Origin: Mycobacterium senriense
GTDB lineage: Bacteria; Actinomycetota; Actinomycetes; Mycobacteriales; Mycobacteriaceae
Reading direction: 5' to 3'
Assembly (NCBI RefSeq): GCF_019668465.1
Contig: NZ_AP024828.1
Location: 3,782,001 to 3,846,000, forward strand
DNA: 64,000 nucleotides
Below the pieces are notes generated by a model. It was not told the DNA's origin and made no database searches. It saw only the letters and a list, made by a program, of their open reading frames with translations. Position numbers and translations under genes: made by a program. Shown here in pieces: positions 48,555 through 64,000 of the stretch. Positions within the stretch are counted from its first letter, which is position 1. Every line of letters starts with the position of its first letter.

Positions 48555-48612
48555 GGGGTTATTAAAGCGGGCGCCGCCGGGGTTTGGGGTGAGCGGCCGT
48601 TACGGTGGAAGC

Positions 48613-50133
48613 GTGACACCGAACCGGGGGATCGATGCCGACTTCCTGGACCTGCCGCGCCACGACCTGGCCGATGCCGCGCTCTCGGCGGCCAAGTTGG
48701 CCGGGGCGACGCACGCCGACCTGCGGGTTCATCGCATCATTACCGAAATCATCCAGCTGCGCGACGGCGAGCTGGAGACCGCGGTGATCAATCGTGAGGT
48801 GGGCCTGGCGGTGCGAGTGATCGTCGACGGCACCTGGGGATTCGCCTCGCATGCGGAGCTGGTGCCGTCGGTGGCGGCCGAGACGGCGCGGCGCGCGGTG
48901 CACGTGGCCACCACTTTGGCGACGCTGAGCAGCGAGCGCGTCGAGCTGGCGCCCGAACCGGTGTACGCGGACGCGGCCTGGGTGTCGGACTACCGGATCG
49001 ACCCGTTCGACATCTCGACCACCGACAAGATCGCCGTGCTGGAGGACTACTCCGGGCGGCTGCTGAGCGCCGACGGCATCAACCACGTGTCGGCGCTGCT
49101 GACCGCCGTCAAGGAGCAGACGTTCTACGCCGACACGTTCGGATCCTCGATCACCCAACAGCGGGTGCGGGTGCTGCCCTCGCTGGAGGCGGTGACGGTC
49201 GACCCCGCGGCCGGCAGCTTCGATTCGATGCGCACGCTGGCGCCGCCGATGGGCCGTGGCTGGGAGGTCCTGGCCGGTGACGAGGTGTGGAACTGGACCG
49301 ACGAGCTGGCGCAGCTGCCGTCATTGCTGGCCGAGAAGATCAAGGCGCCCACCGTCGTTCCGGGGCCCAAAGACCTGGTGATCGACCCGACCAACCTGTG
49401 GCTGACGATCCATGAATCAATCGGGCACGCAACCGAATACGACCGCGCGATCGGCTACGAGGCGGCCTACGCCGGTACGTCGTTCGCCACGCCGGACAAA
49501 CTGGGCACCATGCGGTACGGGTCGCCGGTGATGACGGTGACCGCGGACCGCACCGTCGAATTCGGCTTGGCCACCATCGGTTACGACGACGAGGGGGTGG
49601 CCGCGCAAAGCTGGGATCTGGTGCGCGACGGAATCTTCACCGGCTACCAGCTCGACCGAGTATTCGCGCAGCGACTGGGCCAGCCGCGCTCCAACGGATG
49701 CTCGTATGCCGACTCGCCGCACCATGTGCCGATCCAGCGGATGGCCAACGTGTCGCTGCAGCCGGCGCCCGACGACATCAGCACCGACGACTTGATCAGC
49801 CGGGTCGAGGACGGCATCTACATCGTCGGCGACAAGTCATGGTCAATCGACATGCAGCGCTACAACTTCCAATTCACCGGCCAGCGTTTCTTCCAGATCC
49901 GCGAGGGCAGGCTGGACGGTCAGCTGCGTGACGTGGCCTATCAGGCCACCACCACCGAGTTCTGGAATTCGATGGAGGCTTTGGGGGGAGCGTCGACCTG
50001 GCGCCTGGGTGGTGCGTTCAATTGCGGCAAGGCCCAACCCGGACAGATCGCGGCGGTCAGCCACGGCTGCCCGTCGGCGCTGTTCCGCGGCATCAACGTG
50101 CTCAACACCCGCACCGAGGGCGGGCGCCAGTGA
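48613..50133 (+). CDS. tldD: Metalloprotease TldD (Rv2315c-like)
   Basis: A 506-residue TldD-type subunit of the TldD/TldE heterodimeric zinc metalloprotease, which in enterobacteria degrades unfolded peptides and matures microcins. The zinc motif HExxxH is HESIGH at 267-272, with CSYADSPHH and GGRQ-ended C-terminal parts conserved. GTG 48613 follows GGTGGAA and gives the normal length; the frame upstream to 48517 is spurious. The stop overlaps the partner start as GTGA. Confidence 0.93.
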   Translation: MTPNRGIDADFLDLPRHDLADAALSAAKLAGATHADLRVHRIITEIIQLRDGELETAVINREVGLAVRVIVDGTWGFASHAELVPSVAAETARRAVHVATTLATLSSERVELAPEPVYADAAWVSDYRIDPFDISTTDKIAVLEDYSGRLLSADGINHVSALLTAVKEQTFYADTFGSSITQQRVRVLPSLEAVTVDPAAGSFDSMRTLAPPMGRGWEVLAGDEVWNWTDELAQLPSLLAEKIKAPTVVPGPKDLVIDPTNLWLTIHESIGHATEYDRAIGYEAAYAGTSFATPDKLGTMRYGSPVMTVTADRTVEFGLATIGYDDEGVAAQSWDLVRDGIFTGYQLDRVFAQRLGQPRSNGCSYADSPHHVPIQRMANVSLQPAPDDISTDDLISRVEDGIYIVGDKSWSIDMQRYNFQFTGQRFFQIREGRLDGQLRDVAYQATTTEFWNSMEALGGASTWRLGGAFNCGKAQPGQIAAVSHGCPSALFRGINVLNTRTEGGRQ

Positions 50134-51503
50134 TCACCGCGCAGCATGTCGTCAACATCGTGCTCGATGAGGCGGCCAAGCTCGGCCGCGCCGACGAGAC
50201 CATGGTGCTGGTCACCGACAAGGTCGAGGCGACGTTGCGTTGGGCGGGCAATTCGATGACCACCAACGGGGTTTCGGTGAGCCGCAGCGTGTCGGTGATT
50301 TCGGTGGTGCGTCGCGGGTCCGGCGCGCGCATCGGCACGGTGGTGTCCGCTGAGGCCGACCCGCGGGTGCTGCCCGGGCTGGTGGCCGCGTCGCAGGAGG
50401 CGGCCAGCGCGGCGCCGGAGGCCGGTGACGCCGCGCCGCTGCTGAGCGATACCGGGGTGCCCGTGGATTGGGACGCGCCGGTGCCCGGCACCGGGCCATT
50501 GGTCTTCTCCGATGTGGCCGGCTCACTGACCCGCGGCTTCCGCGGCGAAGACCGGTTGTATGGCTTTGCCCACCACAGTGTTTCGACGACCTTCCTGGCA
50601 TCGTCGACGGGATTGCGGCGACGTTTCACTCAGCCCAACGGGGCGGTGGAAATCAACGCCAAACGCGGCGACGCCAGCGCCTGGGCGGGGGTCGGGACAC
50701 CCGACTTCGTCGATGTGCCAACCGATTCGCTGCTCGAGCAGCTGTCGACGCGGCTGGGCTGGGCGCAGCGCAGCGTCGAGCTGCCGGCGGGACGCTACGA
50801 GACGATCATGCCGCCGTCGACGGTGGCCGACATGATGATCTACATGGCGTGGTCGATGGCCGGCCGCGGCGCCCAGGAGGGCCGGACCGCGTTCTCGGCG
50901 CCCGGCGGCGGAACCCGGGTGGGGGAGCGGCTCACCGATCTGCCGCTGACGCTCTACTCCGATCCGATGGCGCCCGGACTGACTTGTACGCCGTTCGTCG
51001 CGGTCAGCAGTTCCTCCGAGACGGTGTCGGTGTTCGACAACGGTGCGGAGATCAATCAGGTGGACTGGATCCGCAAGGGAGTGATCAACGCGCTGGCTTA
51101 TCCGCGAGCCACCGCCGCCAAATACGACGTCGACGTCGCGGTGGCCGCCGACAACCTGGTGATGACCGGTGGGACGGCCAGTCAGGAGGACATGATCGCG
51201 GCCACCGAGCGCGGTCTGTTGCTGACCACGCTGTGGTACATCCGCGTCGTCGACCCCACCACCCTGTTGTTCACCGGGCTGACCCGCGACGGCGTCTACC
51301 TCATCGAGGACTGCCGGGTGACCGCGGCGGTCAACAACTTCCGATTCAACGAGAGTCCGCTGGACCTGCTGCGGCGGGCCACCGAAGCCGGCGTCAGTGA
51401 AAAGACCCTGCCGCGCGAATGGGGGGATTGGGCCACCCGCGCCGCGATGCCGTCGCTGCGGATACCCGACTTCTACATGTCGTCGGTGAGCCAGGCCCAG
51501 TAA
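50130..51503 (+). CDS. tldE: TldE/PmbA-family protein (Rv2314c-like)
   Basis: A 457-residue partner of TldD, identical in length to Rv2314c. It lacks the HExxxH zinc motif, as TldE subunits do, and acts by forming the closed chamber with TldD. The N-terminal part ([21 protein letters not shown]) resembles that of TldD, and the C-terminal region ([26 protein letters not shown]) is conserved. GTG 50130 overlaps the tldD stop. Confidence 0.92.
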
Positions 51504-51543
51504 TTCATTGCCGCCGGGCGGCGGGCGTTCTAGCGTGTGACGA

Positions 51544-52401
51544 ATGACGGCTCCGGTTTCTGTTCGAGAAGACCAGCTCATGCGGTTGGTGTCGTTGGCT
51601 CCGGGCGACAGTCGTCTGGCGGCGCTGGTTCGCCGGGTATGTGCGCAGACGATGTCGCTGCCGCCGCTGCCCGCGAGCGTCGAGGTCGGCGAGCCGGAAT
51701 CGGAAACCGAGGCCGCGGTCGCCGAATTCGCCGAACAATTCAGCGCCGACGTCGCGTCGGTCACCGCCGAACAGCGGTCGCGGTTGTGGAAGCAGCTAGG
51801 GGACGGCACTTTTGGCGTCGTCGTGCAGATGTACATCGCCGACTTCATCCCCCGGGTGCGGGCCGGGCTGGAAGCGCTCGGCGTCGGCGCGCAATACCTC
51901 GGCTGGGTCGGTCAAGCGATCACCTGGGATCACACCACCGATCCGGCGTATGCGGTGTTCAACCAATTTTTAATCGCGGTGGCGCGAATGCGTGCCCTCG
52001 ACCCCGTCACCTCCGAACTGGTTCGGCTACGCGGGGCGGCACAGCACAATTGCCGGTTGTGCAACTCGCTGCGAGAGGGCGGCGCGCTCGATGCTGGTGG
52101 CTCGGAAACGCTGTACGAGGAGATCGCGCGCTTCGAATCATCGAGTTTGCTCGATGACCGCGCTAAAGCAGCGCTGCGTTATGCCGATGCGTTAATTTGG
52201 ACGCCTGCGCACCTCGTCGCCGACGACGTCGCCGAGGTGCGCTCCCGGTTCTCCGAGTCGGAGGCCGTGGAGCTCACCTTCGACATCATGCGAAATGCCA
52301 GCAACAAAGTCGCCGTGTCATTGGGCGCCGACACACCGCGCGTCGAGACCGGCACCGAGCGGTACTTGCTCGACGCCGACGGCCAGACGGTATTCAGCTG
52401 A
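51544..52401 (+). CDS. AhpD/carboxymuconolactone decarboxylase-like protein (Rv2313c-like)
   Basis: A 285-residue all-helical protein of the AhpD-like fold. The conserved CxxC is in [18 protein letters not shown] and is followed by a helix ending in [23 protein letters not shown], typical of carboxymuconolactone decarboxylase-type proteins, several of which are thiol peroxidase partners. The N-terminal 110 residues are an additional helical domain. Peroxide or redox function is possible but unproven. It follows tldE by 40 bp. Confidence 0.85.
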
Positions 52402-52811: not shown

Positions 52812-53234
52812 ATGACAAGCACCCGTACACGCTCGCGCGTTCGAGTGTCGTCGGTCTGGGCTGCCGGCGTCGCGCTGGGTGCCTCGATGCTCGGCGGCGC
52901 GGTGCTGTCGGCTCCGTTAGCCTCGGCTAACTGCAATTTGAGTCCGGCCGACGATCAGTACATCAAACTGCTCGCGCAGAACAAGATGGTCCACACTGCC
53001 GACTTCAGCGATTGCCACGAGGCCGCCGAGGGTCGTTGGTTCGCCGATCAGGTTCGGGCCAACCCCAATCCGTTCGGTGAGGGCCAAGAGCTGATCAACA
53101 TGATCACCAACACCACCCCGATGACTCAGGCGCAGGCCGAGTGGGAGGTCGAGTCGGCGATCTACGTCTACGCACCCGAACTGATCCCCAAGATCAAAGA
53201 CCAAGCCGCAAACGCAAACTGGCCGACTCCGTAG
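52812..53234 (+). CDS. DUF732 secreted protein 1
   Basis: A 140-residue exported protein of the mycobacterial DUF732 family. The signal peptide is MTSTRTRSRVRVSSVWAAGV through ASA before NCNLSPADDQ. The mature domain has two cysteines (NCNLSP and FSDCHEAAEG), probably disulphide-bonded, and the family helix pattern DDQYIKLLAQNKMV and FADQVRANPNPFGEGQELINMI. ATG 52812 follows AGGGAGG at optimal spacing. It is one of two tandem copies. Function unknown; DUF732 proteins are small cell-envelope or culture-filtrate proteins. Confidence 0.88.
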   Translation: MTSTRTRSRVRVSSVWAAGVALGASMLGGAVLSAPLASANCNLSPADDQYIKLLAQNKMVHTADFSDCHEAAEGRWFADQVRANPNPFGEGQELINMITNTTPMTQAQAEWEVESAIYVYAPELIPKIKDQAANANWPTP

Positions 53235-53575: not shown

Positions 53576-53986
53576 GTGAGAACGACACGATCGCGCGTGC
53601 AGGTGCTGGCGGTGGGGGCCGCGGGCCTGGCGCTGGGGGCCGCGATGTTCGGTGGTGCTGTGGCGTCAGCGCCGCAGGCCTCGGCGTCGTGCAACATGTC
53701 TCCCGCCGACGATCAGTACATCAAATTGCTGGCGCAGAACAAGATGGTGCACAACGCCGACTTCAACGACTGCAGCGAGGCAGCCGAGGGACGCTGGTTC
53801 GCCGATCAGGTTCGTGCCAACCCTAATCCGTACGGCGAGGGCCAGGAGCTGATCAACATGATCACCCGCACTACGCCGATGAGCCAGGCCCAGGCCGAGT
53901 GGGAGGTCGAGTCGGCGATTTTCGTCTACGCGCCCGACATGATTCCCAAGATCAAGTCTCAAGCGCCGGGGCCGGCTCCCGCCTGA
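53576..53986 (+). CDS. DUF732 secreted protein 2
   Basis: A 136-residue tandem paralogue of the preceding gene: a signal peptide (RTTRSRVQVLAVGAAGLALG, cleavage after SASA) and a mature domain almost identical in pattern (CNMSPADDQYIKLLAQNKMV, FNDCSEAAEGRWFADQVRANPNPYGEGQ), ending in QAPGPAPA rather than ANANWPTP. GTG 53576 follows a GAGAG purine run. The high similarity of the mature parts against diverged signal peptides points to a fairly recent duplication or gene conversion. Confidence 0.88.
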   Translation: MRTTRSRVQVLAVGAAGLALGAAMFGGAVASAPQASASCNMSPADDQYIKLLAQNKMVHNADFNDCSEAAEGRWFADQVRANPNPYGEGQELINMITRTTPMSQAQAEWEVESAIFVYAPDMIPKIKSQAPGPAPA

Positions 53987-54132: not shown

Positions 54133-54206
54133 GGGGCGGTAGCTCAGTTGGTTAGAGCCGCGGACTCATAATCCGTTGGTCGCGGGTTCGAGCCCCGCCC
54201 GCCCCA
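54133..54206 (+). tRNA. tRNA-Met (CAT anticodon)
   Basis: A 74-nt cloverleaf. Acceptor GGGGCGG pairs with CCGCCCC, discriminator A. The anticodon loop is CTCATAA, giving CAT. The T arm GCGGGTTCGAGCCCCGC is intact, and CCA is not encoded. The acceptor is fully paired, so it is not the initiator. Elongator Met is the likeliest identity, but a lysidine-modified Ile2 tRNA cannot be excluded by eye. Everything downstream to the window end looks accessory. Confidence 0.93.
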
Positions 54207-54210
54207 CTTA

Positions 54211-54304: not shown

Positions 54305-54325
54305 TAGCTACTTCGACCTGAAAAA
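54305..54325 (+). repeat. Left terminal inverted repeat of the insertion sequence
   Basis: 21 bp, perfect inverse of 55872-55892; it starts TAGCTACTTC and ends GAAAAA. Confidence 0.93.
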
Positions 54326-54410
54326 GTCGGGGTGTGGCGGTGGCTGAAGTGGCCGTTGTTTGACGAGATGATGGCCTCGAACCCTTGGGCAAGAAGGGAT
54401 CGAGGCCATC

Positions 54411-55802
54411 GTGCTGAGAACTTTAAACGACCAGCCGTCGTTGTGGGACGCGATACTGCCGTCGGAGCTGCTGGTGTTGCCCGACGAATTGGCGCGGGTG
54501 GACAGGCTGCTCGACGACCCAGCGTTCTTCGCGCCTTTCGTGTCGTTTTTCGACGCACGAATGGGGCGTCCGTCGGTACCGATGGAGACCTATCTGCGGA
54601 TGATGTTCCTGAAGTTCCGTTACGGGCTGGGTTATGAGTCGCTGTGTCGTGAGGTGGGTGATTCGATTTCCTGGCAACGGTTTTGCCGAATCCCGTTCGG
54701 CACACGGGTCCCGCATCCGACCACGTTGATGAAGCTGACCCGCCGGTGCGGCGATGCTGCGGTGGCCGGGCTCAACGATGCGCTGTTGGCCAAAGCCACC
54801 GAGCGCAAATTGCTGCGAACCGACAAGGTCCGTGCGGATACCACCGTGGTGCCAGCGGCGGTGGCCTATCCGACCGACTCGGGTTTGTTGGCCAAGGCCG
54901 TGGGCAGCATCGCTGGCACGATCACGCGTATTCAAGCCGCCGGCGGAGCGACGCGCACCCGGGTGCGCGACCGCAGTCGCTCCGCGGGGCAGCGGGCCCG
55001 TTCGATCGCGGCCAAGCTGCGTCTGCGCGGTGCAGCGGCGCGCGAGGAGGGCCAGGCTGCGGTGCTGCGGATTACCGGGGATCTGGCCGGTATCGCCGAA
55101 TCGACGGTGCGTGATGCCCAGGCGGTGCTGCGCAACGCCCGACGGAGTCTGCCCACCGCGACCGGTCGGCGTTGCGGCCAATTGCGCCGAGCGATCAATG
55201 ACCTCGATACGCTGTTGCAACGCACCGCTCTAGTGGTGGCTCAGACCCGCAGCCGGCTGGCCGGAGTGATGCCTGATTCAGCGACCCGGATGGTCAGTTT
55301 CCATGACGTCGATGCCCGCCCCATCCGCAAGGGTCGGCTCGGTAAGCCGGTGGAGTTCGGTTACAAAGCCCAGGTCGTAGACAACGCCGACGGGGTCATC
55401 CTCGACCACACCGTCGAGACCGGAAACCCTGCTGATGCACCGCAATTGGTGCCGGCCATCGCACGCATAACAGAACGCACCGGTGGTGCACCAACAGCGG
55501 TGACTGCTGATCGCGGCTATGGATACGCGTCGGTGGAAACCGAACTGCACGACCTCGGGGTTCGCCGCGTCGCGATCCCGCGTGCCAATAAGCCCAGTGC
55601 CACCCGCCGGGAGTTCGAACACCGAAGAGCATTCCGCGCCAAGATCAAATGGCGAACCGGATGTGAAGGCCGGATCAACCACCTCAAACGCAGCTACGGT
55701 TGGAACCGCACCGAGTTGACCACCCTGACGGGAGCTCGAACCTGGTGCGGACACGGAGTCTTCGCCCACAACCTGGTCAAGATCAGCGCCCTGGCCGCAT
55801 GA
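54411..55802 (+). CDS. Transposase (ISNCY-type, DDE)
   Basis: A 463-residue transposase. The N-terminal DUF772-like region contains MGRPSVPMETYLRMMFLKFRYGLGYESLCREV. The DDE catalytic region shows RADTTVVPA (first Asp), TADRGYGY (second Asp) and, near the end, INHLKRSYGWNRT with the downstream acidic residue in CEGRINHLKRS. A long basic insertion (about 180-280) separates the first two. The sequence matches what is annotated as ISNCY-family transposase in actinobacteria; family assignment is from memory. GTG 54411 follows a GGGATCGAGG purine run. Confidence 0.9.
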   Translation: MLRTLNDQPSLWDAILPSELLVLPDELARVDRLLDDPAFFAPFVSFFDARMGRPSVPMETYLRMMFLKFRYGLGYESLCREVGDSISWQRFCRIPFGTRVPHPTTLMKLTRRCGDAAVAGLNDALLAKATERKLLRTDKVRADTTVVPAAVAYPTDSGLLAKAVGSIAGTITRIQAAGGATRTRVRDRSRSAGQRARSIAAKLRLRGAAAREEGQAAVLRITGDLAGIAESTVRDAQAVLRNARRSLPTATGRRCGQLRRAINDLDTLLQRTALVVAQTRSRLAGVMPDSATRMVSFHDVDARPIRKGRLGKPVEFGYKAQVVDNADGVILDHTVETGNPADAPQLVPAIARITERTGGAPTAVTADRGYGYASVETELHDLGVRRVAIPRANKPSATRREFEHRRAFRAKIKWRTGCEGRINHLKRSYGWNRTELTTLTGARTWCGHGVFAHNLVKISALAA

Positions 55803-55871
55803 ACAGCGCAGACCAGCAGCCCGATCGACCAGCCTCGGCCGTCAGCTCGAGCGCCCTCAGACCATCAACCG

Positions 55872-55892
55872 TTTTTCAGGTCGAAGTAGCTA
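55872..55892 (-). repeat. Right terminal inverted repeat of the insertion sequence
   Basis: 21 bp, perfect inverse of 54305-54325. Its outer three bases, CTA on the + strand, form the TAG stop codon of the neighbouring - strand oxidoreductase gene. Confidence 0.93.
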
Positions 55893-56861
55893 ACCGTCAG
55901 CCGCCACTTTGAGCAGGATCTTGCCGCCACGGAGGAGATGTTGCACCGCGTCCTGGATATGCTCCAGGGGGTACGCGGCCCCCACCGGGACAGCGAGGGC
56001 GCCGTCGGCCACCAGCGGTGTCGCCTCACGAATGACCGGCAGCACTTTGTTGCGGTAGTCGAAGTCGCCGACAAAGAATCCGCGGACGGTGAGGTGTTTG
56101 CCGACCAGTGTCGAGGTGTCGACCCACATGGGTTCGTTCCTGGCCCAGGAATAGCTGACCAACCGTCCACCGTCGGACAGCAATTCGAGCAACCGCGCTA
56201 CCCCCGGACCCCCGACGGCATCCACTGCCAGCGCCACTCGCGCGTCGCCGATCGCTGCTCGAACATCGCTGACCGCATCGGGGTCGTCGAGGTGGACGAC
56301 GTCGGCCCCGGCTGCTGTGAGCTCGGCGAACGTTGTGTCGTCGCGGGCCAGGTTGATCGTCTTCAGTCCACGAAGTTTGGCTAGCGCGATCATTGACCGT
56401 CCCACACCGGAGTTCGCGGCGTTCTGAACCACCCAGTCGCCGGGCTGCAGGGTGGTGCATTCACTGAGCATCAAGCCTGCTGTCGGGGGGTTGCTGCCCA
56501 GCATCGAGTACTGCTCGATGTCACCGTCGGCGGGGAGTGCGAACAGGCCGTCGGCGGGCACGACGAGCCGCTCACGCCACGCACCGGCATACAGGGGTAG
56601 CACGACCAGATCGCCGACTTGAAGTCCATCGACCTCGGCACCAGTGGCAAGCACGCGGGCGACCCCCTCTGCACCTGGTATGTGGGGCAGCGATGGTCGC
56701 GCGAGCGCGCCCATGACAACCAGGAGGTCGTGTTTGTTCAACGGCGAGATCTCAACGCTCAGCAGAACCTCGTGCGGACCCGGTGGCGGCGGCTCCTCTA
56801 TGTCGACGACGCGGAGCACCTCCGCGGGGTCGCCGAACCGTTCAATCTGGATGGCGCGCAT
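55890..56861 (-). CDS. Zinc-independent MDR-family oxidoreductase (quinone/enoyl reductase type)
   Basis: A 323-residue medium-chain dehydrogenase/reductase without zinc ligands: MRAIQIERFGDPAEVLRVVD, then IPGAEGVARVLATG, and a nucleotide-binding region with VVQNAANSGVGRSMIALAKLRG. It resembles NADPH-dependent enoyl-CoA or quinone reductases (EtR/QOR types). The gene ends in KILLKVAADG and its TAG stop is contributed by the insertion sequence end, so a few C-terminal residues may have been lost or replaced. It is the second gene after the SRPBCC gene at 56900 (38-bp gap). Confidence 0.85.
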   Translation of the reverse strand: MRAIQIERFGDPAEVLRVVDIEEPPPPGPHEVLLSVEISPLNKHDLLVVMGALARPSLPHIPGAEGVARVLATGAEVDGLQVGDLVVLPLYAGAWRERLVVPADGLFALPADGDIEQYSMLGSNPPTAGLMLSECTTLQPGDWVVQNAANSGVGRSMIALAKLRGLKTINLARDDTTFAELTAAGADVVHLDDPDAVSDVRAAIGDARVALAVDAVGGPGVARLLELLSDGGRLVSYSWARNEPMWVDTSTLVGKHLTVRGFFVGDFDYRNKVLPVIREATPLVADGALAVPVGAAYPLEHIQDAVQHLLRGGKILLKVAADG

Positions 56862-56899
56862 GACAATTCCTTTCGATCGAAGGGCTATGTAAACGGCGG

Positions 56900-57358
56900 T
56901 TATCGCCGAATTTCGGCGTCGCTGCGCGTCTCGATGGCCTTGATGCTGTGAACGAACGCCTTCCTTAAGACTCCCTTGCCGATGGTGCCGAGTACGGCCG
57001 CCAGGACGCGTCCCTTGAGGTTTTTGCCCTCCCGGACAATGACAACGTCCACGTTCGTGGTGCCGTAGGGACGCGGGCTGAGGGTGTAGACGTAGCCCGA
57101 CGCGCCTCCCCAGGTGTTCGAGTCGGTGGTCGTAAGCGTGACGTGGTTGGGATCGGACCAGTCGTAGTGCAGCCGTTCCCAGATGCCGCCTGAGCCTTCG
57201 GTGACATCGGCGTCACGCGCGCCCTTGTGGTGCACTATGAGGTCGGCGTCCGCGCTATCCGGAAAGACCTCGGAACGGCCCGGTCCGAAGTCAGTGAGCC
57301 CGGCGATGAACTGCTCCGGGGTAGATGCGGTGGACCGGTGGAAATGAATCGTGGACAT
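56900..57358 (-). CDS. SRPBCC (START-like) family protein
   Basis: A 152-residue protein with the SRPBCC/polyketide cyclase-like helix-grip layout: IHFHRSTASTPEQFIAGLTDFGPGRSEVFPDS at the N-terminus, beta strands with DWSDPNHVTLTTTDSNTWGGASGYVYTL, and a long C-terminal helix. These bind hydrophobic ligands. ATG 57358 follows a perfect AAGGAGG. It forms an operon with the downstream oxidoreductase and diverges from the XRE regulator. Confidence 0.78.
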   Translation of the reverse strand: MSTIHFHRSTASTPEQFIAGLTDFGPGRSEVFPDSADADLIVHHKGARDADVTEGSGGIWERLHYDWSDPNHVTLTTTDSNTWGGASGYVYTLSPRPYGTTNVDVVIVREGKNLKGRVLAAVLGTIGKGVLRKAFVHSIKAIETRSDAEIRR

Positions 57359-57493
57359 CGCGTCCTCCTTACTTGATCGATTGATCCTTCGTTCCCGGGA
57401 AGCGCACCGCCGCCAATCCGAATTCCCGCTTGGACCTCGGCAGCCATGCCTCATTGATCCTGGTGTTGGGAGGGACAGCCTTAAGATCGGGCG

Positions 57494-58297
57494 ATGACGC
57501 CAACGGTCAGCGCGCTGGGTAACTTCCTGCGCGCGCGCCGCGAACAACTCCGCCCGGAGGATGTCGGGTTGGATTCCGGACCTCGCAGGCGCGTCCGGGG
57601 ATTGCGCCGCGAAGAGTTGGCGATGCTCGCGGGCATTAGCGTCGACTACTACCTGCGACTCGAGCAAGGTCGTGACCGGCACCCGTCCTCACAGGTGCTC
57701 GATGCGCTCGCCCGGGCGCTGCGACTGGATATCAAAGCCACAGAACATCTGCATCGGCTTGCGGGCTTACAAGCGGCGCATAGCCCTCGGCCTGTTGCAG
57801 AGGCAGCGGCTGACGGTCTCGATCAACTGATCGAGCAGATCTCGCTTCCTGCGATCGTCACCAACCGATACCAGGATGTGTTGGCCGCCAATGCGATTGC
57901 CTGCGCGTTGTCACCAGGGTTCGCGCCCGGCGAGAACTTCTTGCGGTGGCGGCTGCTGACACCGGCTGCTCGCGATTTTTTCGTCGACTGGGACGAGGCA
58001 ACCGAGGTCGCGGTGAGTGGCTTACGGGAATCCGCGGCCGGCAATGTGGGTGATCCTCGCTTACGCGCCTTGATCGACGAGCTTTCGGCAGCCAGCGACC
58101 GATTCCGCGAACTCTGGGCACGCGCAGATGTCGGATACCGTAGCGGCATCCTCCACCTGCGACATCCCCTGGTGGGTGATCTCTACCTTCGCCGCACGAG
58201 GCTCAGCGTCCCCGACTCAGACACTCAGGTGTTCATTTACCACCCCGAGCCGGGCAGTGATTCGGCAAAAGCGCTTGAGGCACTCGCAGCCTCATAA
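57494..58297 (+). CDS. XRE/MmyB-like transcriptional regulator
   Basis: A 267-residue regulator with an N-terminal HTH (LGNFLRARREQLRPEDVGL, RRVRGLRREELAMLAGISVDYYLRLEQGRDRHPS) and a C-terminal MmyB-like PAS-type ligand domain (IVTNRYQDVLAANAIACAL, FRELWARADVGYR, PLVGDLYLRRTRLSVPDSDTQVFIYHPEPGS). Such proteins are typically encoded divergently from the oxidoreductases they repress, as here; the 135-bp gap carries a repeated TTGATC element (57373-57386). Confidence 0.9.
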   Translation: MTPTVSALGNFLRARREQLRPEDVGLDSGPRRRVRGLRREELAMLAGISVDYYLRLEQGRDRHPSSQVLDALARALRLDIKATEHLHRLAGLQAAHSPRPVAEAAADGLDQLIEQISLPAIVTNRYQDVLAANAIACALSPGFAPGENFLRWRLLTPAARDFFVDWDEATEVAVSGLRESAAGNVGDPRLRALIDELSAASDRFRELWARADVGYRSGILHLRHPLVGDLYLRRTRLSVPDSDTQVFIYHPEPGSDSAKALEALAAS

Positions 58298-58307
58298 ACC
58301 CGTAAGG

Positions 58308-58469
58308 GCGCTGGGGTTACGGAAGTTCTTCGAGGAGGGTGGCCACGAACTGGTGGTGACCTCGGACAAGGACGTCTGGACTCGGAGTTCGAGCGCGAAC
58401 TGCCTGACGTCCCACCGGCCGCTGGAGCCGGCCTATTACGCTCAACGCCTGAGGCCAGCCGCCGGCTGA
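58308..58469 (+). pseudogene. Remnant of an NAD-dependent formate dehydrogenase
   Basis: Starting 11 bp after the XRE stop, the sequence reads ALGLRKFFEEGGHELVVTSDKD in one frame, DSEFERELPDV in a second frame and SHRPLEPAYYAQRL back in the first. These match successive parts of the N-terminal region of NAD-dependent formate dehydrogenases (LGLRKFxExxGHxLVVTSDKDGPDSxFExELPDADxVISQPFWPAYLTAERI). Both ends and the whole NAD-binding and catalytic core are missing, and two compensating frameshifts are present. It is a short relic of a deleted gene. Confidence 0.7.
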
Positions 58470-58557
58470 GTGCTCAAATCAGAAGGTCTCAACACGCCCG
58501 CCGTGATGGCATTGGAGCTGGCCGCTCCGATCCAGTGGACCCGATGGAGGGGCCAGT

Positions 58558-59532
58558 ATGGCAACCATGCGGTCTGTCGTTGCCGAGAAGGTAGGCGAAC
58601 CGTCCGAGGTCCTGCAGCTACAGGCCCGGCCAATCCCGGAGCCTGGCATCGGCCAGGTCCGGATCCGGGTAACAGCTGCACCGGTTGAGGCCAGCGATCT
58701 ACACACCGTCCGCGGCAGATACGGATTTACCCCGGAGTTTCCCACCGTGCCCGGAATCGAATCCGTTGGTGTGATCGACGAAATCGGGAGCAGTGCAGAG
58801 GGATTGACCATCGGGCAGCGCGTCATCACAATCGGAGTCACGGGCACCTGGCAGGAATACGTCGTTGCCGATGCCGAGCGAGTGCTGCCTGTACCCGCGG
58901 GCATGAGCGATTCCACCGCCGCCCAGATTCTCAGCAATCCGCTCACCGCCGTCATCTTGACCAGTGAAAAGCTCGATGTTCGGTCGGGTGAATGGCTTTT
59001 GCAGACCGCAGCCGGCTCAATCGTGGGCCAGTCGGTCATCCAACTGGGAACCCACGTCGGCTTCAAAACCCTCAACGTGGTCCGTCGTCGCTCGGCTGTC
59101 GAGGACGTCCTCGCGCTGGGCGGCACCGCGGTGATCTGCACCGAAGACGAGGACCTGCGCGAACGGGTGGCCGAGATCGCCGGCGCCGATGGCGTGTCCA
59201 AGGCGATCGACTGCGTGAGCGGTCAGGTGGGCGCGGGTGCGTTGTCCACGCATCGGCAAACCGAACCCGACAAACTCACCATCCCCATCTTCGCCCGCTC
59301 GCTGATCTACGAAACCAAGACCGTTCGGGGGTTCTGGCTGTTCCGCTGGTTCAACCAAACCCCGAAGGATCGGATGGCGGCAACGATCGACCGGACACTT
59401 CAGCTCGTCGACAGTGGTGCGCTACGGGTGCCCGAGGGGCAGCCGATCCCCGCCGAAAAGTTCAGTGAGGCGGTTTATTTGGCCGAAGCGCCCGCACACG
59501 GGGGCAAACCGCTGCTGGTGTTCGAAACGTAA
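58558..59532 (+). CDS. MDR-family oxidoreductase (enoyl/quinone reductase type), probable small internal deletion
   Basis: A 324-residue zinc-independent MDR: MRSVVAEKVGEPSEVLQL, TVPGIESVGVIDEIGS, LLQTAAGSIVGQSVIQLGTHVGFKTLNVVRR. In the nucleotide-binding half, SGQVGAG runs directly into ALSTHRQTEPDKLTIPIFARSLIYETK. Homologues normally have about 15 more residues there (a helix and a Gly-rich turn), so an in-frame deletion near 59230-59240 is likely and activity is doubtful. ATG 58558 follows GGAGGGG. It has no zinc-binding cysteines. Confidence 0.8.
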   Translation: MATMRSVVAEKVGEPSEVLQLQARPIPEPGIGQVRIRVTAAPVEASDLHTVRGRYGFTPEFPTVPGIESVGVIDEIGSSAEGLTIGQRVITIGVTGTWQEYVVADAERVLPVPAGMSDSTAAQILSNPLTAVILTSEKLDVRSGEWLLQTAAGSIVGQSVIQLGTHVGFKTLNVVRRRSAVEDVLALGGTAVICTEDEDLRERVAEIAGADGVSKAIDCVSGQVGAGALSTHRQTEPDKLTIPIFARSLIYETKTVRGFWLFRWFNQTPKDRMAATIDRTLQLVDSGALRVPEGQPIPAEKFSEAVYLAEAPAHGGKPLLVFET

Positions 59533-59539
59533 AAACGCG

Positions 59540-59556
59540 AGGCGCGACGCGCGCCT
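59540..59556 (+). terminator. Hairpin after the MDR gene
   Basis: AGGCGC, loop GACGC, GCGCCT, 8 bp past the stop. Six GC-rich pairs; no T-tract. Confidence 0.45.
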
Positions 59557-59563
59557 GCCACTT

Positions 59564-59601
59564 GGCAAATAATTTTCCTTTTGCCGTGGTCGTTTAACCA
59601 C
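59564..59601. promoter_or_regulatory. Paired inverted repeats upstream of the nitrilase operon
   Basis: GGCAAA, 10-nt AT-rich spacer, TTTGCC (59564-59585) is followed at once by GTGGT, 6-nt spacer, ACCAC (59586-59601). This AT-rich island stands out in GC-rich DNA and lies about 190-225 bp upstream of the nitrilase start. It is a plausible operator/promoter for the operon. The rest of 59602-59789 shows no gene. Confidence 0.45.
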
Positions 59602-59789
59602 TACGCTGAGCCCATCGGGACACCCGTGATCAACTGGGTTGATATCGGTCACCGCTTCAGTAGCCATATCACCTCGGAATTTGCTTGCCGACGACCCAGC
59701 CTCGGCCGCCGTCGCGATGGACTCAACCCGCAGAACGCCTCTAAAGGCGCGCCGTCCTGTCTGCCAGTAGAACGCAATTCGAGGTGAGG

Positions 59790-60815
59790 ATGGGCGCGGT
59801 GACCACAATCCGGGCAGCGGCAGTCCAACTGCGTCCTGAGCTGTACAGCCGGGACGGGACCGTCGAGCGCGTCGTCGCGAAGATCGACGAACTGGCAACG
59901 CGTGGCGTGCAATTCGCGACTTTTCCGGAGACTGTCGTTCCCTATTATCCGTATTTTTCGTTTGTGCAGCCCCCGTACCAAATGCTGCCCGAGCAAATAC
60001 GGCTCATGCGGGAGGCCGTCACCGTGCCATCCCCGGCGACACAGGCAATCGCCGACGCCGCAAGCCGCGCCGGAATGGTGGTCTCCATAGGTGTGAACGA
60101 GCGCGACGGCGGCTCACTGTTCAACACCCAGCTGCTTTTCGATGCGGACGGAGCACTGATCCAGCGTCGCCGAAAGATCACTCCGACCTATCACGAACGC
60201 ATCATCTGGGGCCAAGGCGATGGCAGCGGACTTCGAGCCGTCGACAGCGCAGTGGGTCGCATTGGCCAGCTGGCCTGTTGGGAGCACTACAACCCGCTGG
60301 CCCGCTACGCGCTGATCGCCGACGGCGAGCAAATTCATTCGGCGATGTTTCCGGGATCCATTTTCGGCGACCTGTTTGCCCGGCAGGCGGAAGTCCAGGT
60401 GCGCAACCATGCGCTCGAATCGGGTGTCTTCGTGGTCGTGGCAACCGCCTGGCTCGATCCCGATCAGCAGGCGCAGCTCATGGCGGACACGGGTTGCCCG
60501 ATAGGGCCGATCTCGGGTGGCTGCTTCACCGCGATCATCACACCGCAAGGCGAGCCGCTCAGTGAGCCCCTGCGTTCCGGTGAAGGCGAGGTGATCGGGG
60601 ATCTGGACTTTACGTTGATCGACAAACGCAAGGCCTTCATGGACTCCGTCGGGCACTACAGCCGACCCGAATTGCTAAGTCTCCTTATCGATCACACTCC
60701 CAGCGCCTACATTCATCGACGGTTTCCGGGATCGTCTATCGTGCCTGGCACTGAGGAGAGCGTGATGGTACTCACGGATCCGGTGACGACGTCGGTTGAC
60801 GGAGGCGCCGTATGA
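59790..60815 (+). CDS. Nitrilase
   Basis: A 341-residue carbon-nitrogen hydrolase of the nitrilase branch, converting a nitrile to the acid plus ammonia. The catalytic triad is Glu47 (FPETVVPYYPYFSF), Lys129 (RRRKITPTYHE) and Cys163 (GQLACWEHYNP). The motif wording, notably CWEHYNPL, fits aliphatic or Nit6803-like nitrilases rather than amidases. ATG 59790 is preceded by GAGG at 5-nt spacing; GTG 59784 is an alternative. It is the first gene of a tight six-gene operon and overlaps the next start as ATGA. It is not the classical Nit1C cluster: no radical SAM, acetyltransferase or AIR synthase-like gene follows within the window. Confidence 0.92.
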   Translation: MGAVTTIRAAAVQLRPELYSRDGTVERVVAKIDELATRGVQFATFPETVVPYYPYFSFVQPPYQMLPEQIRLMREAVTVPSPATQAIADAASRAGMVVSIGVNERDGGSLFNTQLLFDADGALIQRRRKITPTYHERIIWGQGDGSGLRAVDSAVGRIGQLACWEHYNPLARYALIADGEQIHSAMFPGSIFGDLFARQAEVQVRNHALESGVFVVVATAWLDPDQQAQLMADTGCPIGPISGGCFTAIITPQGEPLSEPLRSGEGEVIGDLDFTLIDKRKAFMDSVGHYSRPELLSLLIDHTPSAYIHRRFPGSSIVPGTEESVMVLTDPVTTSVDGGAV

Positions 60816-61198
60816 CATGCATGGGAAAGCCTTACTACCCATTGTGGTTGGACGACCTGGCCGACGACGTCACCCTCGAGGCCGCGGCGATGGACGGCAC
60901 CGCGCACGGTGCCGAGGCTGTCCGCTTCATCTTGGGCAAAGCTCGCGAACAGTACGAGCACCAAGAGTTCACCTACGCCGGTCCCTGCGGCGAAAGCGGT
61001 TACGTCGAGGACTATTCGAGCTCGGTTCGCGGGGTGCCGACCTGCGTCGTCGTGCTGGTCACCTTCAACACCGACGGGCAGACCCAGCACGTCGTGGTGA
61101 ACCACCGGCCGCGCAGCGCGATGTTGAACTTTTCCCGCGTGATGCTCGAAACCTTCGCCGACACCCCGCATGCCAAGCATTGGAAAGGCACCCCGTAA
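60812..61198 (+). CDS. NTF2-like (SnoaL-type) protein, copy A
   Basis: A 128-residue protein with the alpha+beta cone layout of NTF2/SnoaL-like proteins: GKPYYPLWLDDLADDVTLEAAAMDGTAHGAEAVRFIL, EFTYAGPCGESGYVEDYSSSVRGVPTCVVVLVTFNTDG and a C-terminal VVNHRPRSAMLNFSRVMLETFADTPHAKHWKGTP. Such folds act as small isomerases, cyclases or hydrolases, or bind ligands. ATGA overlap with the nitrilase and TAATG overlap with copy B show strong coupling. Confidence 0.8.
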   Translation: MTCMGKPYYPLWLDDLADDVTLEAAAMDGTAHGAEAVRFILGKAREQYEHQEFTYAGPCGESGYVEDYSSSVRGVPTCVVVLVTFNTDGQTQHVVVNHRPRSAMLNFSRVMLETFADTPHAKHWKGTP

Positions 61199-61590
61199 TG
61201 GCATCGACATATCTGGGAAAGCCTTATTACCCGGCGTGGTTGGACAATCTGGCCGACGACGTGACGGGGGAGGGGCCGGCATGGGACGGCGCCATCCAGG
61301 GCGCTGCGGCCGTCCATGAAGTCGTGGTCGCCGCCAAAGAGATCTACGAGTTTCAAGAGTTCCACTACGCCGGGCCATGCGGGGACAACAGCTTCCTTGA
61401 GGACTACACATCATCGGTTCGCGGTGTGCCGCTGCGCGTCATCGTTCTGGTCGCCTTTAATGCCGACGGGAAGGCCCAGCGCCTAGTGGTCAATCACCGC
61501 CCGCGCAGTTCTGTGCTGGAGATGTCACGCGCGATGCTCGAGAGATTCGCCGGCACCCCCCTTGCCAAACACTGGGAAGGCACACCGTAA
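61198..61590 (+). CDS. NTF2-like (SnoaL-type) protein, copy B
   Basis: A 130-residue tandem paralogue of copy A with the same frame: YLGKPYYPAWLDNLADDVTG, FHYAGPCGDNSFLEDYTSSVRGVP, VVNHRPRSSVLEMSRAMLERFAGTPLAKHWEGTP. Central residues differ (for example VHEVVVAAKEIYEFQ against VRFILGKAREQYEHQ), so the copies have diverged and may form a heterodimer or act on different intermediates. Its ATG shares a base with the TAA of copy A. Confidence 0.8.
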   Translation: MASTYLGKPYYPAWLDNLADDVTGEGPAWDGAIQGAAAVHEVVVAAKEIYEFQEFHYAGPCGDNSFLEDYTSSVRGVPLRVIVLVAFNADGKAQRLVVNHRPRSSVLEMSRAMLERFAGTPLAKHWEGTP

Positions 61591-61599
61591 GGAGCGCGA

Positions 61600-62511
61600 A
61601 TGAGTACGCCCCTGTATCTGATCACCGGCGCGGGTGGGGGCACCGGTGGGGTCAGCAGACAAGTGATCGAGCAACTGCGCGCGGGTGGAAACCAGGTGCG
61701 CGCGTTGGTCCATCGAGACGATGCTCGTGCCGATCCGCTGCGCGAACTCGGCGCTGAAGTGGTCATCGGGGATCTGACCGAACCGCGAGATGTCGTCAAC
61801 GCCATGGCCGGCGTCGATCGCATGTTCTTTTCGATGAGCGTTTCGCCGGACTACCTGACGGCGACAGCCGTAATCTGTGATGCTGCATTGGAATACGGTC
61901 ACCTGGAGGTGGTCGTGAACATGTCTCAGATGACGGTGTCGCAGATGACGCTGACCAGCGAGGGGGAGTCTCACCAACATCGGCTGCACTACCTCGCAGA
62001 GCACGTCTTAAACTGGTCGGGAATACCGGTGGTGCACATCAGACCGACGGCGTTTTTGGATAATCCGATCTTTACCTGGTTCGCCGCGCCATCGCTGCGG
62101 GAACGAAATCTGTTGGTGTTGCCCTTCGGAACCGGGCGAACCTCGCCGATTGCCACCAGCGACGTGGCCCGCGCGGTCGCGGCAGTGCTCGTCGACCCCG
62201 CCGACCGTATCGGGAATATCTACGAGTTGACCGGACCGACCAGCCTGGACATCGACGGGCTGGCAGCCGAATACGCACGGGGACTGCACCGGCCGATACA
62301 AGGTTCCGACATTCCGCATGAGACCTGGGTCCAGGAAGTCCTCAAACCGCTCGGCCTGCCCGAGCACCTGCAGCAGCACCTCACCACGATGGCGCTCCTG
62401 CACCGGGCCGGACGCTACGACCGAGCCACCGATGACGTCGAAAAGCTCACGGGGCAGCAGGCTTCCACGGTTGGCGAATACGTCGCCGAACATCCCGAGC
62501 TGTTCTCATAG
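61600..62511 (+). CDS. NmrA-like NAD(P)-binding protein
   Basis: A 303-residue atypical short-chain reductase of the NmrA/SDR-a5 type: the dinucleotide-binding motif is LITGAGGGTGGVSRQVIEQL, followed by VRALVHRDDARADPLRELGAEVVIGDL and PVVHIRPTAFLDN. It lacks a clear YxxxK pair, as NmrA-like sensors and some reductases do. ATG 61600 follows AAGGAGCG. It may reduce an intermediate of the nitrile pathway; this is inference. Confidence 0.85.
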   Translation: MSTPLYLITGAGGGTGGVSRQVIEQLRAGGNQVRALVHRDDARADPLRELGAEVVIGDLTEPRDVVNAMAGVDRMFFSMSVSPDYLTATAVICDAALEYGHLEVVVNMSQMTVSQMTLTSEGESHQHRLHYLAEHVLNWSGIPVVHIRPTAFLDNPIFTWFAAPSLRERNLLVLPFGTGRTSPIATSDVARAVAAVLVDPADRIGNIYELTGPTSLDIDGLAAEYARGLHRPIQGSDIPHETWVQEVLKPLGLPEHLQQHLTTMALLHRAGRYDRATDDVEKLTGQQASTVGEYVAEHPELFS

Positions 62512-62514
62512 CTA

Positions 62515-63243
62515 ATGGGCGATCTGCTCGCCGAGGTGGTCGCGGCGCACGGCGGCATGGAGCGCTGGAACAGTGTGACATCGGTCAACGTCGCCGCGTC
62601 GATCACCGGGGCGACCTGGTTCGTCAAGGGCAAAGGCGATGCGCTCAAGGACGTCCGCTTCCAGGTCGACACCACGCGCGAGCTGCTGACGATGGACTTC
62701 GTCGGTCAAGACAAGCGCTCGATCTTCGAGCCCTCCCGCGTCGCGATGCAACGCGCTGACGGCATGACCGTGCAGTCACGTGCGGACCCGGAGCGGTCGT
62801 TTGACGGGCACGTGCTCGCCACCCCGTGGGACGACCTGCACGTCGCCTACTTCAGCGGGGAGGCGCTCTGGACGTATCTGAACACGCCATTCGTCTTCAC
62901 CTGGCCCGAATTCGTCACCGACGAGATCAGCCCCATCGAGGTGGACGGTGAACCGTGCCGGCGGCTAAGGGCGACGTTTCCCGATCACATCAAAAGCCAT
63001 ACCCGCGAACAGATCTTCTGCTTTGGCCCGGACGGGCTGCTGCGCCGTCAGGACTACACGGTCGACATCCTGGGTGGCGCAGCCGGGTTGAACTACGCCA
63101 GCGACTTTCGCGATGTCGACGGGATCATCATCCCCACCAAGCGGCGGGTCTACAGCTGGGAGGGCGACTATCAGCTGGTCCCGGAGCCGCTGCTGATCGC
63201 GATCGACATGAGTCAGATCACCTTGCGCCGAAACAACATCTGA
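62515..63243 (+). CDS. Unrecognised 242-residue protein of the nitrilase operon
   Basis: Starts 3 bp after the NmrA-like gene (MGDLLAEVVAAHGGMERWNSV). It is beta-rich, with alternating strands such as VRFQVDTTRELLTMDFVGQDKRSIFEPSRVAMQ and CFGPDGLLRRQDYTVDILGGAAGLNYASDFRDVDGIIIPTKRRVY. The opening AHGGxxRWxxV and overall length resemble LolA/LppX-like beta-fold proteins, but there is no signal peptide, so it would be cytoplasmic. No catalytic motif recognised. Confidence 0.75.
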   Translation: MGDLLAEVVAAHGGMERWNSVTSVNVAASITGATWFVKGKGDALKDVRFQVDTTRELLTMDFVGQDKRSIFEPSRVAMQRADGMTVQSRADPERSFDGHVLATPWDDLHVAYFSGEALWTYLNTPFVFTWPEFVTDEISPIEVDGEPCRRLRATFPDHIKSHTREQIFCFGPDGLLRRQDYTVDILGGAAGLNYASDFRDVDGIIIPTKRRVYSWEGDYQLVPEPLLIAIDMSQITLRRNNI

Positions 63244-63255
63244 GAGGAGCGCATC

Positions 63256-63891
63256 ATGGCCGACATCGAACCGCATGGAGCATCGGGAAGCTATAGCAAC
63301 AGCGCGATCACAGCGTTGCACGCCGGAGAACTCCACGCGGCATCCAGGGACGAACAGGTACTCGCCGCCAAAATATCGCGCGCGATGTCGTCGGGTCCGC
63401 TGCACATCACCCGCGACGCCACGATCGCAGAGATGGATGGGCACGGCAATCCTGTCGTGCTACGCCAGGGAACCAACCAGTGGGTGTGTTTCCCCGGTGA
63501 TGAGAACAAGATCGGCGACGTGCCCATGTGCGCGGATCCCATGGGGCTGCAATGGATGCTAGACATCATGGCGAGCAAGCCGGCTCCGACCAACACTGCC
63601 CCCGGAATCATCTACATGCTCTGCGGTGCAACACAACACAGCAATACCGACCTGTTCGACAAGACCAGCCCCGCCATTCCGATCGGCCCGCACTGGATGA
63701 TCCTTTGGCCCTACAGCGCGGCGCGTGATGGCCTCCCGAACACCGTGCGTGATGCCGGCGCCTGGGTGATGTTCGACGGCACGCCCTATGCATATCTGCA
63801 TATCTGCGGCACGCCCTGGGCGGGCAATGAGTACACGCCCGGCCAGGCACCCGTCTGGACGATGCGATATAGCGCGCCGACAGAAAACTAA
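63256..63891 (+). CDS. Unrecognised 211-residue conserved protein of the nitrilase operon
   Basis: ATG 63256 has AGAGGAGCG just upstream. Distinctive stretches are GTNQWVCFPGDEN, MCADPMGLQWMLDIMASKPAPTNTAPGIIYMLCGATQHSNTDLFDK, PIGPHWMILWPY and GTPYAYLHICGTPWAGNEYTPGQ. The regularly placed Cys, His and Trp residues suggest a metal or substrate site. I have the impression of similar hypothetical proteins in proteobacteria but cannot name a family. There is no signal peptide. Confidence 0.75.
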   Translation: MADIEPHGASGSYSNSAITALHAGELHAASRDEQVLAAKISRAMSSGPLHITRDATIAEMDGHGNPVVLRQGTNQWVCFPGDENKIGDVPMCADPMGLQWMLDIMASKPAPTNTAPGIIYMLCGATQHSNTDLFDKTSPAIPIGPHWMILWPYSAARDGLPNTVRDAGAWVMFDGTPYAYLHICGTPWAGNEYTPGQAPVWTMRYSAPTEN

Positions 63892-63969
63892 CCGCGGACC
63901 GTCGGAGGTTTCGCGCGTACCCCTCGCCGCGCCCCTGCAGCTGCGGTACTACTACCGAGCCAAGGAGGC

Positions 63970-64000
63970 GTGAACTCAGCTTTGGCCCCGAGGTGGTCAC
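63970..64000 (+). CDS. Possible start of a further gene (truncated by window end)
   Basis: An AAGGAGG at 63962-63968 is followed by GTG 63970 and an in-frame TTG at 63982. Only ten codons are visible. The ribosome-binding site makes a seventh gene of the nitrilase operon plausible. Confidence 0.3.
   Translation, partial: MNSALAPRWS

Follow-up and report, generated by a model that had tools for sequence, protein, structure and literature searches.

This analysis concerns a nitrilase gene cluster within 64,000 nucleotides of Mycobacterium senriense DNA (assembly GCF_019668465.1, contig NZ_AP024828.1, positions 3,782,001 to 3,846,000; hereafter the window, whose own numbering is used throughout). 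We found that the cluster is real, conserved and apparently mobile, and that the six-gene unit of the original prediction is the downstream part of a ten-gene unit adjoining a tRNA-Met gene, with four further genes that travel along upstream and carry the unit to position 55890. Our preferred reading, which we hold tentatively and at slightly less than an even chance, is that these ten genes likely moved between species and that their nitrilase, which is not of the known Nit1C type, hydrolyses a functionalised natural nitrile to an acid and ammonia, with the partner proteins as proposed further steps. Its main rivals are the use of cyanohydrins as in Nit1C and a loose neighbourhood of genes without a common pathway. 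Nitrilases of this class, like the concept of clusters other than Nit1C, were known before; the mycobacterial gene set, the link to NTF2-like proteins across phyla, a fusion of the nitrilase to a partner and the tRNA-Met setting are new to us. No description of this gene set, and no established function for it, turned up in the open-licence PubMed Central (PMC) literature, to which all our literature searches refer.

All six open frames of the downstream part are present on the forward strand, and their tight packing stands as first described: the junctions measure -4, -1, +9, +3 and +12 bp in order, two overlaps followed by three gaps. The nitrilase (59784-60815, +) matches the Pfam family CN_hydrolase with 138.4 bits (cut-off 23.2) and has three in-frame starts (GTG at 59784, ATG at 59790 and GTG at 59799), the last of which is close to where the frames called in its relatives start (e.g. 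L021, L036). It is followed on the same strand by two NTF2-like proteins, A (60812-61198) and B (61198-61590), which are paralogues of 64% identity, by an NmrA-type NAD(P)-binding protein (61600-62511; Pfam NmrA 62.5 bits, cut-off 27), and by two proteins to which the Pfam scan gave no family, open reading frame 5 (ORF5, 62515-63243) and ORF6 (63256-63891). The four upstream genes encode a quinone oxidoreductase-like medium-chain dehydrogenase (adh1, 55890-56861, -), a protein of 153 amino acids without a Pfam family (56900-57361, -), a regulator of the MltR/MmyB type (57494-58297, +) and a second medium-chain dehydrogenase (adh2, 58558-59532, +). The regulator, a helix-turn-helix protein with an MLTR_LBD domain (156.9 bits, cut-off 26.3), has the features given for this type in the available part of PMC3406030, a divergent neighbour and a dehydrogenase nearby, and is flanked by both adh1 and adh2.

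A search for the same gene order in other bacteria, proposed originally as a check, showed that the order is not unique. All ten genes stand in identical order in a second genome (G936), from adh1, the 153-residue protein, the regulator and adh2 through the nitrilase, NTF2-like A and B and NmrA to ORF5 and ORF6. Identity in protein is 90-97% for the nine cluster proteins searched (96-97% for the six core genes, 90% for adh1, 91% for the regulator and 92% for adh2), the gene of the small protein is 90.4% identical in DNA, and the cluster as a whole is 93.9% identical in DNA over 55887-63975. Parts of the set recur elsewhere, adh2 for instance adjoining NTF2 and NmrA genes in L161 (81% identical) as well, and the shared order together with these parts across genera and phyla appears to be more than chance. 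Nine of the ten genes, compared with G936, have a ratio of nonsynonymous to synonymous change (Ka/Ks) of 0.15-0.36.

The surrounding chromosome compares with G936 quite differently. A flank of 6.9 kb (45525-52401), which in G936 lies about 9 kb from the tRNA-Met gene, is 76% identical in DNA; six of its frames, including an overlapping pair on opposite strands, have protein identities of 54-84%, and the stretch 44061-45480 matches elsewhere in the G936 genome at 75%. The contrast between 94% in the cluster and 76% in the flank makes it likely that the cluster moved between species. Moreover, the synonymous distance of adh1, the small protein and the regulator is 0.22-0.25, against 0.02-0.10 from adh2 to ORF6, which suggests that the second half of the unit was shared more recently.

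The position of the cluster points the same way. The tRNA-Met (CAT) gene (54133-54207, +; called by ARAGORN) ends in 46 bases (54162-54207), the left repeat of a putative island; a second copy of 97.8% identity stands in direct orientation beyond the window's end, at 69171-69215 (G000:C1:3851171-3851215). In G936 the tRNA-Met gene (L200 14781-14855) and an exact 47-bp copy (L200 6347-6393), about 8.4 kb apart, bracket just the cluster. The tRNA-Met gene, the direct repeats of its 3' end and the identity contrast to the flank fit a genomic island of the tRNA-borne kind, judged on the sequence; unlike such islands, no integrase was recognised among the subset of island frames scanned, and the G936 copy, with its 8.4 kb between repeats, is small. 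G936 has a third copy of the tRNA-Met 3' end (95%, L200 4218-4258), past a zinc metallopeptidase gene, and the site may therefore hold stacked inserts.

We now consider the nitrilase itself, which has the conserved Glu-Lys-Cys triad (E49, K131, C165). It belongs to the same subfamily as the Nit1C enzymes and is 67% identical to the Acinetobacter Nit1C nitrilase; in contrast to them, its score against TIGR04048, the Nit1C family, is 479.3 bits, below the cut-off of 502.6. In a tree of 62 nitrilases, four rows with Nit1C context (Acinetobacter, Acetobacter, Rhizobium and Tistrella) stand at the base, and the window nitrilase lies inside a set of 57 rows without that context (support 91/97) and inside a set of 11 rows (support 100/93), every one of which has an NTF2, NmrA, ORF5 or ORF6 gene within 6 kb. 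The root of this tree is unsure because it was rooted on one outgroup row with a very long branch; the tree covers the nitrilases that remain after omission of sequences that are the same for most of their extent, of matches shorter than about 700 bases, of the short loci L075-L123 and L166, and of L200-L207 (including G936 and L204), and it is also without a second nitC clade, with glxA upstream, that the available part of a Pseudomonas study describes (PMC11049912). The enzyme, a member of subfamily 1, thus falls beside the Nit1C branch and not within it.

Its gene context agrees with this placement. The Nit1C set joins a nitrilase to MSMEG_0572, a radical SAM protein, a GNAT protein, an AIR synthase-like protein, MSMEG_0570 and a flavin oxidoreductase; none of these six partners has a match in the 85 kb around the cluster, and all six were found in the control locus from which they were taken (L170). 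No radical SAM relative was found in the window genome by a search that ran without a control. The original claim that the set differs from Nit1C is thus upheld by both the tree and the partners. The control locus, from a mobilizable plasmid of Acinetobacter ursingii, is itself a complete Nit1C cluster, and no other Nit1C row of the tree lies closer to the window branch than its nitrilase.

Podar et al. 2005 (PMC1199592), in the part of that paper available to us, describe a non-Nit1C side of subfamily 1, known at the time from environmental DNA only, about two thirds of which occurs with MarR, epimerase and epoxide hydrolase genes. They report that enantioselectivity changed on this side of the tree, infer a departure of subfamily-1 nitrilases from Nit1C to a new role under selection, and name six sites as selected; their triad (E44, K126, C160) gives a numbering offset of 5 to the window nitrilase. 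We compared these sites across five Nit1C sequences (Synechocystis included), 46 other rows and the 11 rows of the window's set. Site 46 is V in all five Nit1C sequences and T in 34 of the 46 others, in 8 of the 11 and in the window (T46). Site 162 is A or S in the five, and Q in 45 of the 46, in all 11 and in the window (Q162). Site 208 is H in the five, N or Q in 45 of the 46, and N in all 11 and in the window (N208). Finally, Nit1C has T at site 205 and all 46 others have S, N or A, against Q in 10 of the 11, so that the subclade has its own state there. The window nitrilase therefore differs from Nit1C at 46, 162, 205 and 208, four of the six selected sites.

The remaining two sites favour the first main rival, namely that the cluster detoxifies cyanide or cyanohydrins and captures their nitrogen, the nitrilase hydrolysing the 2-hydroxynitriles that cyanide gives with carbonyls, and the partners handling the carbonyl side. 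Site 189 is F in Nit1C and in all 11 rows of the window's set, the window thus having the Nit1C residue, and at site 289 the window shares V with Nit1C, the other rows varying. The nearest relative in the PDB is 3wuy, a nitrilase from Synechocystis (E 6e-123); in Pseudomonas, according to the available part of PMC11049912, a cyanohydrin is hydrolysed by the Nit1C enzyme NitC; and the released ammonia would serve the nitrogen supply. Weighed against the absence of every Nit1C partner from the 85 kb, the four departed sites and the changed enantioselectivity reported for that side of the tree (PMC1199592, same part), we consider cyanohydrin use unlikely, if still a serious competitor to the hydrolysis of a functionalised natural nitrile that we prefer.

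The clusters of Podar et al. are the closest described arrangement, with the order MarR, nitrilase, epimerase and epoxide hydrolase in the part of PMC1199592 available. Paraburkholderia sp. FT54, in which MarR, a nitrilase, an alpha/beta hydrolase and an NAD(P)H-binding protein form a row, is a cultivated example of it. Our nitrilase lies on the same side of the tree, with the departed sites just described, and its NmrA-type partner is 46.7% identical over 306 amino acids to the NAD(P)H-binding protein of FT54; the NTF2-like protein is 39% identical to its FT54 counterpart. The window differs from these clusters in having an MltR-type regulator, two dehydrogenases, the NTF2-like pair, ORF5 and ORF6 instead: the FT54 MarR and alpha/beta hydrolase, as well as DUF302 and a tautomerase, have no match in the 85 kb, and each was found in its source locus. 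Another alpha/beta hydrolase frame lies past the right repeat. The partners that the original prediction called unrecognised are not entirely so, for in 2005 environmental DNA had already yielded a non-Nit1C cluster that pairs a nitrilase with an NAD-binding 'epimerase'.

How widely do the partners accompany such nitrilases? Within the genus, nitrilases at least 70% identical occur at 37 places in 35 of 297 genomes, NTF2-like A (E 1e-10) in 15 of the 297 and ORF6 in 9; in a draw of 396 genomes, 20 have relatives of NTF2-like B, its paralogue A counted in. Across the order, nitrilases at E 1e-100 were found in 4 of 298 genomes, all in the window's genus, and a search of the phylum for the TIGR04048 family found 2 of 296, the window genome included. 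Among 72,556 plasmid records, 522 match the nitrilase (64 of these at 60-80% identity) and 8 have relatives of NTF2-like A. In four of these eight (Streptomyces sp. NBC_01483, Caballeronia SBC1 and SBC2, and Paraburkholderia FT54) the NTF2-like gene and a nitrilase of 67-71% identity are at most about 2.5 kb apart, in two Streptomyces plasmids the distance is 16-19 kb, and for the remaining two no nitrilase is among the matches listed (best 40). NmrA-type and NTF2-like partners also accompany nitrilases of this kind in Streptomyces, Caballeronia and Paraburkholderia.

ORF6, too, is linked to the nitrilase. It follows the nitrilase directly in five mycobacterial loci (L016 and L017 being near-identical contigs of metagenome-assembled genomes), and in one genome, Mycobacterium sp. 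OTB74, nitrilase and ORF6 form a single frame of 535 amino acids with one final stop, which makes it likely that ORF6 works physically with the nitrilase. Four Acidobacteria loci (L042, L045, L050 and L071) hold a dehydrogenase 29-30% identical to adh2 together with ORF5 (38-43%) and ORF6. The structures of the two unknown proteins were to be predicted under the original plan; the ORF6 model gave no convincing PDB match, and the sequence profiles had none in the PDB either, to E 5 for ORF6 and to E 1 for ORF5. ORF5 may resemble LolA-like proteins.

The observations that tell against our reading concern mobility, the partners and the nitrilase in turn. Besides the lack of a recognised integrase and the two retained Nit1C residues, copies of the tRNA-Met 3' end are common near this tRNA in relatives; a search of 51 genomes with the flanks for an empty site found the tRNA and the right flank, never side by side; and ARAGORN found no tRNA-Met gene in 27 other loci, some of them short and four from genomes already represented. 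The family assignments of the original prediction, which hold for the nitrilase and NmrA, do not extend as well to the NTF2-like pair: A scores 13.9 bits with SnoaL_2, under the Pfam cut-off of 27, and the Pfam scan gave no family for B; a profile match to PDB 3f8x (E 0.0012) lends the assignment weak support. With a Ka/Ks of 0.88 against G936, based on 12 changes, ORF6 shows no sign of constraint, and only 7 of 59 named ORF6 loci hold such a nitrilase in the stretch fetched (L016, L017, L019, L021, L023, L036 and L047). Nitrilases beyond the 11-row set can have NTF2 or NmrA-type neighbours too (L132, L135, L174, L169 and L172), or the NmrA type alone (L175, L176 and L178); consequently, the partners do not define that set. 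The letter named by Podar et al. (PMC1199592, available part) is present at only two of the six sites (T46 and Q162). Finally, at the 36 nitrilase places outside the window, the gene most often found within 6 kb is DUF302 (31 places), followed by NTF2-like A (6), ORF5 (3), and ORF6, NmrA and NTF2-like B (2 each), and the set is to that extent loose; these counts are possibly low, as some contigs end near the nitrilase and L126, L129, L134 and L149 were taken short.

Such looseness is what the second main rival proposes, a neighbourhood of catabolic genes gathered on islands, in which the NTF2, NmrA, ORF5 and ORF6 proteins share no substrate with the nitrilase. The varying composition, the replacement of NTF2 by DUF302 in most relatives, the ORF6 loci without a nitrilase and the frequent position of MltR regulators beside dehydrogenases in any case (PMC3406030, available part) all speak for it. 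The overlapping starts, the nitrilase-ORF6 fusion, the NTF2-nitrilase linkage from mycobacteria to Streptomyces and Burkholderiales, and the nitrilase subclade in which each of 11 rows has at least one such partner speak for a common pathway, and we judge that the loose neighbourhood is about as unlikely as cyanohydrin use. The alternative partner is itself a recognisable arrangement: mycobacterial nitrilases with DUF302 are 71-81% identical to ours (tblastn, 31 of 36 places), and that on plasmid pR1CP1 of Rhodococcus opacus 1CP is 77.6% identical. It differs from the window in that DUF302 comes directly after the nitrilase, where ORF6 sits in the five mycobacterial loci. No literature on a nitrilase with DUF302 turned up.

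Under the pathway that we prefer, the MltR-type regulator would sense the compound or a hydrophobic breakdown product, and the nitrilase, by means of its conserved Glu-Lys-Cys triad, would convert a functionalised natural nitrile by hydrolysis into a carboxylic acid, with release of ammonia. NTF2-like A and B, an old pair of paralogues, would likely act jointly on the product as an isomerase or dehydratase, and the NmrA-type protein and the medium-chain dehydrogenases would likely reduce or oxidise the same skeleton. ORF6 would be a physical partner of the nitrilase, as the fusion suggests, and ORF5 an accessory or binding protein. A bolder form of this proposal is a mobile, tRNA-Met-borne module for an undescribed pathway specific to one class of natural nitriles, in which a neofunctionalised nitrilase forms a complex with a new-fold ORF6, an obligate NTF2-like A/B heterodimer and the NmrA reductase rebuild the freed acid, and the dimer face of the subclade (Q205) changed when it gained its partners; taken whole, we regard this as unlikely.

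Two further pathways can be weighed on the gene content. The cluster may serve biosynthesis rather than breakdown and tailor a nitrile-bearing secondary metabolite. SnoaL-like proteins also serve in polyketide pathways, which counts in favour of this alternative. So does the link of MltR-type regulators to antibiotic genes noted in the available part of PMC3406030, but no synthase or transporter family is among the ten proteins scanned, and we find biosynthesis improbable. More improbable still is an aldoxime-nitrile pathway, with the nitrilase as the second step after an aldoxime dehydratase. Operons of this kind are known for other nitrilases (PMC8955678, available part); no aldoxime dehydratase was recognised among the cluster genes, and none (PF13816) was found in the window genome, a result that is weak because 14 control genomes were silent too.

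Together with related clusters in isolates that have names (Mycolicibacterium sp. CBMA 226, M. aquaticum, Paraburkholderia sp. FT54 and Caballeronia sp. SBC2), this one brings the question of Podar et al. within reach of deletion and growth tests, for which the repeat-bracketed G936 copy offers natural limits as to which genes belong together. In ORF5 and ORF6 it also exposes two large families, of 2971 and 1221 relatives, for which no Pfam entry was found.

Several features around the cluster complete the picture. An insertion sequence of about 1.6 kb (54305-55892, +) with 21-bp inverted ends (54305-54325 and 55872-55892) and a transposase frame (54411-55802; Pfam DUF772/DDE_Tnp_1) separates the tRNA-Met gene from the cluster; it is lacking in G936, where both sides abut, and is a later insert. 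The motif TAGCTA stands on both of its sides and once at the uninterrupted G936 site, which matches the expected target duplication. A direct repeat of 371 bp with 82% identity (52827-53197 and 53585-53955) immediately precedes the tRNA-Met gene. The AT-rich regulatory island reported in front of the nitrilase corresponds to a gap of 251 bp (59533-59783) that is presumed to be regulatory; its 58.6% G+C is lower than the 66.5% of the window, but only mildly so, as 2.3% of 251-base stretches are equally low. The scanned stretch, which covers this gap, has no sigma-70-like consensus promoter, and short inverted repeats in the gap are near chance length. Past ORF6, the next forward-strand frame with a Pfam match (G6PD_N) begins after about 680 bp.

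A P460-type haem protein was considered as an identity for ORF6 on weak fold hints in both models and rejected, as there is no CxxCH motif; 73 ORF6 members scanned to E 1 gave no P460 family, only a weak Tat signal and scattered chance matches. A 302-amino-acid relative with a catalase-like start (P0044), on a single 1.2-kb contig, may be a chimera and was left out of account. In Acidobacteria, ORF6 genes occur as diverged tandem pairs (L038, L040, L060 and L061), and in two mycobacteria (L056 8907-10663 and L072 2561-4057) a different CN_hydrolase lies beside ORF6, with DUF302, NmrA-like and NTF2-like A genes nearby, so that a further enzyme of the nitrilase superfamily has partners of these types. 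Nitrilase and DUF302 genes lie side by side at 31 of the 36 mycobacterial places (loci L124-L159), as well as in Rhodococcus opacus 1CP.

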